The notes under the pieces were generated by a model, which did not search any database, was not told where the DNA came from, and saw only the letters and a program-made list of their open reading frames with translations. This document shows positions 33,821 through 54,515 of a stretch of DNA of 64,000 nt, in pieces. Origin of the DNA: Glaesserella australis (GTDB lineage Bacteria > Pseudomonadota > Gammaproteobacteria > Enterobacterales > Pasteurellaceae); the NCBI RefSeq assembly GCF_003260095.1, contig NZ_PTPX01000020.1, forward strand, positions 1 to 64,000, read 5' to 3'. Positions within the stretch are counted from its first letter, which is position 1, and each line of letters opens with the position of its first letter. The position numbers and the translations under genes are program-made.

Positions 33821-34171
33821 TTAAATCACTTTTACCGCATGTTCAAACGAGAATGTCTCTCCCCGAGCATCTGTAACATGAATATGTAAAATAAGAGAGC
33901 CATTTTTAGGTTGTGTATACTCAACGCGAATGGATTCAGCTCGTCCATCGTCAACTAGGGGTTGTAACGCTTCTTCTGCATACTGCTGAGCCAAAAAACC
34001 TACACGGCTTAAATCTTTCTCACGTGTAATAAGATGGAGTAGAGAGCCTACACGCCCGTCTGCCCACCACGAGCCTAAAGGAGTTGTAAGTCTGATATAC
34101 ACCGCATTTTGCAAGGTGTGAATGTGTTCACTTGTGTAGTCCCGAGTGAGCGGGCTGATCTCTCTATCCAT
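33821..34171 (-). CDS. Mu gp46-like baseplate protein (GPW/gp25)
   Basis: 116 residues from ATG 34171 (MDREISPLTRD). Conserved TPLGSWWADGRVGSLLHLI. Wedge protein of the baseplate. The predicted late-promoter start falls on or next to this ATG, and no strong ribosome site precedes it, so its first message may be leaderless. Confidence 0.85.
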   Translation of the reverse strand: MDREISPLTRDYTSEHIHTLQNAVYIRLTTPLGSWWADGRVGSLLHLITREKDLSRVGFLAQQYAEEALQPLVDDGRAESIRVEYTQPKNGSLILHIHVTDARGETFSFEHAVKVI

Positions 34172-34177
34172 AATCCA

Positions 34178-34222
34178 ATAATAGAGAGAAAAGAGAAAGG
34201 AATAGAGTGGCAAGACTTCAAC
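34178..34222 (-). promoter_or_regulatory. Putative Mor/C-dependent late promoter (PP-like)
   Basis: The activator motif GTTGAAGTCTTGCCACTCT (34204-34222) is followed after exactly 20 nt by -10 TATTAT (34178-34183). No -35 is present. Predicted start is near 34171. It shares motif and spacing with 46109-46153 and 54041-54085, and lies ahead of gp46-48 and the fibre genes. Confidence 0.7.
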
Positions 34223-34273
34223 GTTGCGAGCGGTTCAATAAGACAATTTTTTGTCATATCTCACCGCTATTTA

Positions 34274-46078: not shown

Positions 46079-46108
46079 AACGCACCTCATACAAAATAAT
46101 GAGACTAG

Positions 46109-46153
46109 AGAATAAGAGATTGATTAAAAGGAATAGAGTGGCAAGACTTCAAC
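46109..46153 (-). promoter_or_regulatory. Putative Mor/C-dependent late promoter (PI-like)
   Basis: The motif GTTGAAGTCTTGCCACTCT (46135-46153) is followed after 20 nt by -10 TATTCT (46109-46114). Start near 46102, 24 nt before the protease start codon. Same spacing as the other two copies. Confidence 0.75.
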
Positions 46154-46271
46154 GTTTAACGTTTTTTTCAGAAATTATCTTGCAAGAGAATAAAGTAAGA
46201 AAGGAAACCCATTTTAAAACGTTTTAAAACCGTTTTAAATTGTTTTAAAAATTTTTGAACGATAAATCATA

Positions 46272-53462: not shown

Positions 53463-54008
53463 TTACCCCTTAAATAAATGTTCTATATTCACAACTTCTT
53501 CACTATCCAACCACGCCCACACATCAAAGCAAGGGCAATCTTTCACCCACTCATTCGGGGCAATAGTGCCATCACCATTACGATCAGGACTTAAATCCCG
53601 ATGTCCATAAATCTTCGCATTCGGGTATTTCGCTTCAAGATCACGCAGTAAACGGTGTAATGCGTGCCATTGTGCTTCGGTAAATTCAGCGTGATTTTTG
53701 CCACTTGCCGTAATACCACCTACCACACAAATCCCGATAGAGTGGAGATTGTGACCTTTAACGTGAGCGCCCATTTCGCCAACTTGACGACCTGTTTCAA
53801 CAGTTCCGTCCACATCAATCACAAAGTGATAACCAAGGTGTTCAAGGTGAGAATTAAAGGTTTTCACCGCCCCCGCCAATCGTTTAAAGCCTCGTGGCTT
53901 ATGCCAACTGTCAATCACTTCAGCAGATGATTTGCCCGATTGATTTAAACTTTTACCATTACGAGTAGCTGAACAATGGATTACGATTTTTCTAATAGGA
54001 AAGGTCAT
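53463..54008 (-). CDS. Endolysin, N-acetylmuramoyl-L-alanine amidase
   Basis: 181 residues, Amidase_2/PGRP fold related to T7 lysozyme. Zinc ligands are His in IVIHCSAT (near 11), His near 113 or 130 (IYGHRDLSPDRNGDG) and Cys in CPCFDVWAWL. It has no signal peptide, so a holin is needed. It is the first gene of the late lysis operon. Its GAGG ribosome site lies in the 3' arm of the terminator hairpin at 54018-54040. Confidence 0.92.
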   Translation of the reverse strand: MTFPIRKIVIHCSATRNGKSLNQSGKSSAEVIDSWHKPRGFKRLAGAVKTFNSHLEHLGYHFVIDVDGTVETGRQVGEMGAHVKGHNLHSIGICVVGGITASGKNHAEFTEAQWHALHRLLRDLEAKYPNAKIYGHRDLSPDRNGDGTIAPNEWVKDCPCFDVWAWLDSEEVVNIEHLFKG

Positions 54009-54040
54009 AAAAAAAGCCTCTTTAAGCGATACTTAAAGAG
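54009..54040 (-). terminator. Terminator overlapping the lysis promoter start
   Basis: The 9-bp stem CTCTTTAAG/CTTAAAGAG (arms 54032-54040 and 54018-54026) is followed by GCTTTTTTT, ending at the endolysin ATG. It would stop transcripts coming from the activator gene. The late start, near 54034, is inside the 5' arm. Confidence 0.85.
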
Positions 54041-54085
54041 ACTTTAAAGGATTTATCCTTGTGTTGAGAGTGGCAAGCCTTCAAC
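54041..54085 (-). promoter_or_regulatory. Putative Mor/C-dependent late promoter (Plys-like)
   Basis: The motif GTTGAAGGCTTGCCACTCT (54067-54085; one base differs from the other two copies) is followed after 20 nt by -10 TAAAGT (54041-54046). Predicted start near 54034. The activator gene ends two bases upstream. Confidence 0.75.
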
Positions 54086-54086
54086 G

Positions 54087-54515
54087 CTAGAATAGCGTGG
54101 CTTGTGATGATTGCTGTTCTTTTATCTTTGCCTGCCGCACAATTTCCCACCCTGTTCGCCATGTAATATCAAACTGCGGACAAAGCTCTACCATTGCCAT
54201 TCGCCCACTAATATTACGAGACTGCATTTCACAAAATGCTGCATAAAAACGCTGATTACGTAAAACTTTTAATGCCTTATCACAACGCGGAATATAAATC
54301 TCATCTCGTCCATAGTGATGTAGCAACTGATTTGCAAGATCTTCCCCAACAACATTTTTCACTTTTTCAAAATATCGCGTGGATTCCCCTGCCAACCAAA
54401 ACGAGCCACCACCCAATTTACGCACAAGCTTCTCAGTCGCAGGCATGCCAATAATATCCACCATTTCAATCATGCTCTGTGGTAAATAATCAACAACTTG
54501 TTCAAATTCACTCAT
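54087..54515 (-). CDS. mor: Mor/C-family transcription activator
   Basis: 142 residues from ATG 54515, with GGGGGGA upstream. Features of the Mor family are LPQSMIEMVDIIGMPATEKL, a beta-strand region (EIYIPRCDKALKVLRNQ) and a C-terminal helix-turn-helix (GRMAMVELCPQFDITWRTGW). In Mu, Mor and C bind upstream of -35-less promoters and recruit RNA polymerase. Here one protein appears to serve both roles, directly before the lysis promoter. Confidence 0.85.
   Translation of the reverse strand: MSEFEQVVDYLPQSMIEMVDIIGMPATEKLVRKLGGGSFWLAGESTRYFEKVKNVVGEDLANQLLHHYGRDEIYIPRCDKALKVLRNQRFYAAFCEMQSRNISGRMAMVELCPQFDITWRTGWEIVRQAKIKEQQSSQATLF

Follow-up and report, generated by a model that had tools for sequence, protein, structure and literature searches.

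In a Mu-like prophage of Glaesserella australis, the endolysin gene is very likely controlled by a Mor-activated late lysis promoter that is nested in a hairpin combining an intrinsic terminator with the endolysin ribosome site; the transcription start, the termination and the timing are predicted from sequence. The prophage lies on the minus strand of the window, by which we mean the whole 64,000-nucleotide stretch of contig NZ_PTPX01000020.1 that was analyzed, and Haemophilus phage SuMu is an example of the phages carried by relatives of this genome. The last gene ahead of the endolysin is mor, and the two are separated by an intergenic gap of 78 bases:

54087–54515, minus strand: mor, a Mor/C-family transcription activator of 142 aa (Pfam PF08765, E 5.7e-10; PHROG 836, E 1.8e-37)
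53463–54008, minus strand: endolysin, an N-acetylmuramoyl-L-alanine amidase of 181 aa (Pfam PF01510, E 6.5e-18; PHROG 822, E 7e-64)

A small cysteine-rich open reading frame (MATTICSHCGMVCPII...CSCKHS) of zinc-ribbon or Com-like appearance is found shortly upstream of mor, at about 54779–54638 on the minus strand. The lysis element, read 5' to 3' on the minus strand, is CTTTAAAGTCTCTTTAAGTATCGCTTAAAGAGGCTTTTTTTATG, and the spacer between mor and the endolysin has the 3' end ...GCGTTGAAGGCTTGCCACTCTCAACACAAGGATAAATCCTTTAAAGTCTCTTTAAGTATCGCTTAAAGAGGCTTTTTTTATG on this strand. Its features are as follows:

54070–54085, minus strand: predicted Mor box (GTTGAAGGCTTGCCAC), with TTGAA (54084) at precisely 43 nt from the end of the −10 and its center at −43.5 from the predicted start
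54041–54046, minus strand: −10 hexamer TAAAGT, which overlaps the stem foot, placed by the −10 score profile and the fixed distance from the Mor box
54034, minus strand: predicted start of late transcription, at the 12th nucleotide of the 5' arm and 7 nt after the −10 end
54013–54045, minus strand: predicted terminator/ribosome-site hairpin, from folding and covariation (5' arm 54045–54031, loop 54030–54028, 3' arm 54027–54013)
54017–54020, minus strand: endolysin Shine-Dalgarno GAGG, inside the 3' arm and 8 nt from the ATG, from sequence
54009–54015, minus strand: U7 tract adjoining the ATG (54008), both terminator tail and Shine-Dalgarno spacer, from sequence

The hairpin is composed of 15 pairs and a 3-nt loop, with a free energy of −16.7 kcal/mol as calculated by thermodynamic, not co-transcriptional, folding. 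The stem is A/T-rich and contains 4 G-C pairs. A 161-nt region folds with a z-score of −4.5, and none of 200 shuffled versions folded equally well. The stem-loop is followed at once by the U-tract, as in an intrinsic terminator, and transcription is predicted to terminate here. A scan of positions 53800–54300 against Rfam gave no match up to E = 1. An initial annotation of this DNA had described a U-tract adjoining the endolysin ATG and a GAGG located in the 3' arm, and both descriptions are accurate (U7 at 54015–54009 ends at the ATG, and GAGG at 54020–54017 lies within 54027–54013). The same annotation placed a late start at 54034 inside a 5' arm reaching from 54032 to 54040; the start does fall inside the arm, but the arm itself is longer, at 54045–54031. 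Two other inverted repeats, namely an imperfect hairpin that spans the stop codon of mor and reaches into the Mor box (54106–54075, minus strand; CAAGCC ACGCTA TTC TAGCGT TGAA GGCTTG) and AAGGATAAATCCTT, a perfect palindrome of the promoter spacer (54060–54047, minus strand), are missing in close relatives and therefore fall outside the element.

For 65 Pasteurellaceae loci, which form 40 clusters at 80% identity, we compared the DNA upstream of either the endolysin or the gene that follows mor. These loci were gathered via endolysin and whole-genome searches; a Mor protein search returned 1 locus in viral contigs and 0 in genome contigs. A hairpin ending 0–8 nt ahead of the start codon is present in 39 of the 40 clusters, and the median stem score of 30, compared with a shuffle mean of 8.0, was reached by 0 of 1600 shuffles. 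The sole cluster missed by the stem finder, L072, folds as a longer imperfect stem. Of the 53 starts in SuMu, only one scores higher than the endolysin start for an abutting stem. Six or more T in seven, forming a U-tract, precede the endolysin in 36 of the 40 clusters, versus 1 of 51 other SuMu genes. The full U-tract is absent in four clusters, of which L021, L060 and L078 retain the stem. The second Mu-like prophage of the same genome (L089) also has the lysis-hairpin layout. Strong abutting stems are also seen at the annotated SuMu (L109) starts 7850, 36941 and 6006, with scores of 41.0, 30.5 and 26.

Every one of the 11 pairs counted has two-sided changes among the 35 distinct stems. Cells were paired in 94.0% of cases versus 62.6% after shuffling, cells with two-sided changes numbered 118 versus 35.5, and the covariation score was 0.834 versus 0.246; each of these values was matched by 0 of 500 shuffles. 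The covariation was lost when the partner was slid by one column, and exchanging arms between loci lowered pairing from 94.5% to 63%. Stem sequences vary widely with the pairing kept, and G-U pairs are present. Loci within one family are related, and both the covariation and the spacing tests span more than a single clade. Because covariation of the stem extends over dozens of loci, we conclude on comparative grounds that the stem functions as RNA.

The promoter has the features expected of the Mu Pm type of Mor-activated promoter, being predicted to pair a phage-encoded Mor/C-family activator with a dyad near −43.5 that replaces the −35 element. The published center of the Mor site of Mu Pm is likewise −43.5 (PMC4390567). 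The −10 hexamer in the window, TAAAGT, has 4 of 6 consensus matches, and across 39 clusters the −10 score profile has its peak at the stem foot. The −10 was chosen as the best hexamer within a 6-nt range, a procedure that does not force the exact spacing. In Mor-class clusters, the distance from the box, [C/T/G][T/G]GAA, to the −10 end is 43 nt in 18 of 19 cases and 44 nt in one, with 42–47 nt from box to stem and 75–82 nt from box to ATG. A second class has the palindrome TTAAAN4TTTA exactly 42 nt ahead of the −10 in nine of nine clusters, and this spacing holds even in one cluster with a 6-nt shift of the stem register. Palindromes such as CTTTAAACCAGTTTAAAATC, at a fixed distance from the −10, were observed at L004, L050, L060, L065, L066, L067, L073, L074 and L078, in phages that have no mor close by. 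This type of palindrome is likely the operator of another Mor/C subclass; some of the phages in question encode a Mor-family protein, and where activators from the other box classes were tested, they too belong to the Mor family.

Since the −10 is fixed by its spacing from the activator site, the predicted start falls inside the 5' arm, and it does so in all clusters evaluated with the activator-fixed −10. The late start that had been predicted near 54034 in the window agrees with the 43-nt spacing between the Mor box and the −10. Other weak −10-like strings are present upstream in the promoter spacer.

Accessibility of the ribosome site was calculated for RNAs with different starts. Opening the Shine-Dalgarno in the window requires 13.2 kcal/mol in a read-through transcript and 2.6 kcal/mol in RNA from 54034, so that the calculation favors the earlier proposal that the hairpin would hide the ribosome site in a read-through message. 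Over 37 clusters the medians are 13.1 kcal/mol for read-through and 3.2 kcal/mol for late RNA, and the two ranges do not overlap (lowest read-through value 8.7, highest late value 6.4). Of the 15 stem pairs, 11 are missing from a transcript starting at 54034, consistent with the statement in the initial annotation that late RNA lacks most of the 5' arm. When the start is shifted just 4 nt upstream, much of the block on the Shine-Dalgarno returns at many Mor-class loci, and from starts 8–20 nt upstream the site is closed, with a median unpaired probability of 0.00. From the predicted start it is open in part (median unpaired probability 0.24), as the late RNA keeps partial Shine-Dalgarno pairing. 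The mor stop codon lies about 41 nt ahead of the stem, and therefore ribosomes finishing mor should not melt it.

The mechanism that we propose builds on features established by comparison, namely the covarying hairpin with its U-tract and enclosed Shine-Dalgarno, the activator box and its spacing from the −10, and the calculated cost of opening the ribosome site. Early transcripts through mor would carry the entire hairpin, and most would end at the U-tract. In early RNA that reads past the U-tract, the endolysin Shine-Dalgarno would be locked in the 15-bp stem. Once Mor has accumulated, it would bind the box centered at −43.5, and transcription would begin at about 54034, inside the 5' arm. 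Missing 11 of 15 pairs of the stem, this late RNA should neither terminate at the hairpin nor hide the ribosome site, and the endolysin would be made late. The exact start, the efficiency of termination, the arrival of early RNA at the hairpin and the effect on the timing of lysis are what we infer. Our analysis bore out every sequence-level premise of the interpretation given in the initial annotation and thereby supports it; the interpretation would further require that early RNA reach the hairpin and terminate there, that late RNA start at 54034, and that both levels of control be important in vivo. If this is true, the element is a compact two-level safety catch on a host-killing gene, and it would explain how a late phage gene can directly follow an early operon without leaking. 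As a short DNA element with many natural variants, it is also an easily testable system. Furthermore, because the distances among box, −10, start and hairpin are constant or almost so, late lysis promoters should be predictable from sequence, together with their starts, in little-studied Mu-like phages.

Control of translation alone, with the stem masking the Shine-Dalgarno of read-through RNA in the manner of T4 gene e and the U-tract serving as a mere spacer, seems unlikely to us. It would accommodate the four clusters without a full U-tract, three of which (L021, L060 and L078) keep the stem, and likewise the Klebsiella phage and the enterobacterial prophage described below, where a stem is present without a U-tract. 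A spacer role is nevertheless hard to square with a tract of at least six T in 36 of 40 clusters versus 1 of 51 other genes. The loci that keep a stem without a U-tract bear, in the opposite sense, on the idea that the hairpin is simply a terminator of the early (mor) operon, with the overlap of promoter and ribosome site reflecting compactness and the hiding of the Shine-Dalgarno being incidental. Mu does have a terminator-like hairpin between C and lys and another right after mor, as this idea would have it, but the Mu hairpin is upstream of Plys and apart from lys, whereas here the hairpin is merged with the Shine-Dalgarno in nearly all clusters. We consider a terminator without further function to be quite improbable.

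The weak −10-like strings in the upstream spacer raise the question of whether late RNA begins there and carries the hairpin, which would then stabilize the RNA or delay lysis. The spacing between the Mor box and the −10 places the start in the 5' arm in all clusters evaluated, however, and starts 8–20 nt upstream leave the Shine-Dalgarno closed, making this explanation very improbable. An inverted repeat that overlaps a promoter could also be a DNA operator for a regulator and not an RNA element. Here, it is the complementarity that is conserved and not the sequence, G-U pairs occur, and a U-tract comes next; covariation without sequence conservation led us to reject this reading, to which we give almost no weight. 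The combined terminator and ribosome-site lock, with a late start inside its 5' arm, is the reading that we prefer.

Known systems share parts of this arrangement. In T4 gene e, long early transcripts hide the ribosome site, and late promoters start such that the 5' strand is missing, with a 100-fold effect; the leader serves lysis timing, and soc, 49 and I-TevI are further cases (PMC3014915). The layout at the window is of this type, with the ribosome site in the stem and the predicted late start inside its 5' strand, and in both systems a read-through stem covers the ribosome site and late RNA without the 5' strand is, or here would be, translated. However, the late promoters of T4 are of the gp55 type and no terminator is described in the review, whereas the present element combines a Mor box and a sigma70-type −10 with a terminator-like stem. 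The two elements are not homologous. The T4-type late promoter TATAAATA is not found at the lysis promoters compared here, where the −10 sequences are TAAAGT, TAAACT, CATAAT and similar and are accompanied by Mor boxes.

Mu Plys resembles the present promoter in having a Mor/C-family activator, an activator dyad, a position directly upstream of the endolysin as a late lysis promoter, and a terminator-like hairpin nearby. In Mu, however, the hairpin is upstream of Plys and apart from the lys ribosome site, and the late genes use C, not Mor. A related principle operates in IS10 and IS50, where RNA that reads in from outside folds so that the transposase ribosome site is hidden, whereas RNA from the internal promoter lacks one arm. 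These differ in being insertion sequences that use an inverted terminal repeat, have no role in lysis and have no terminator tail. Starting inside a hairpin to control translation is therefore already known from T4 gene e, and the merging of this device with an intrinsic terminator appears to be new. Among open-licence papers, we found neither a description of a terminator combined with a ribosome-site lock nor any account of this element for Mu-like phages; the SuMu paper never uses the word 'promoter', and the available passages of the Mannheimia phage paper make no mention of the layout.

A weight matrix built on the Mor-class promoters was run on the prophage and identified two additional minus-strand sites with a nearly identical box (CGTTGAAGTCTTGCCACTC) and the identical 43-nt spacing:

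46102–46155, minus strand: predicted second late promoter, PI-like (TTGAA 46152, −10 TATTCT 46114–46109, start 46102), preceding a gene I homologue at 46090
34171–34224, minus strand: predicted third late promoter, PP-like (TTGAA 34221, −10 TATTAT 34183–34178, start 34171), in the tail region

Both sites, at 46152–46102 and 34221–34171 on the minus strand, contain CGTTGAAGTCTTGCCACTCTATTCCTTT. By position, the 46102 site corresponds to Mu PI and the 34171 site probably to PP, and the PI-like site is also present at the same place in SuMu. Neither of the two promoters has a terminator/ribosome-site hairpin. Therefore, the hairpin belongs with a lysis gene placed directly after the early operon and not with Mor promoters in general. 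These data suggest that Mor itself, rather than a separate C protein, may run the late genes of this phage, in which the endolysin directly follows mor.

Both amidase endolysins and the unrelated GH108 endolysins are found with this layout, and GH19 is a third family. Beyond the Pasteurellaceae, in Klebsiella phage ST405-OXA48phi1.1 and in a prophage from another family of the order (L081), a GH19 endolysin is preceded by a box, a −10 at 43–44 nt (judged by eye) and an ATG-adjoining stem, with no U-tract. The layout was not seen at the Mu, D3112 and L080 loci inspected. Because it persists across three unrelated families of endolysin and three subclasses of activator that differ in their boxes, selection seems to act on the layout and not on the sequence. 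It is probable that we are dealing with a widespread and so far undescribed class of lysis-gene control element, in which one hairpin serves as early-operon terminator, ribosome-site lock and start region of a late promoter across these three Mor/C subclasses and three endolysin families. Pseudomonas phage VW-6B, likewise from outside the Pasteurellaceae, has a stem, a TTTTTT adjoining an ATG, and a CATACT 43 nt after an ACGAA box (also by eye). This in-frame ATG, right behind the U-tract (L110, 883–934), suits the start of the lysozyme better, and the annotated lysozyme start of VW-6B is probably 17 codons too late.
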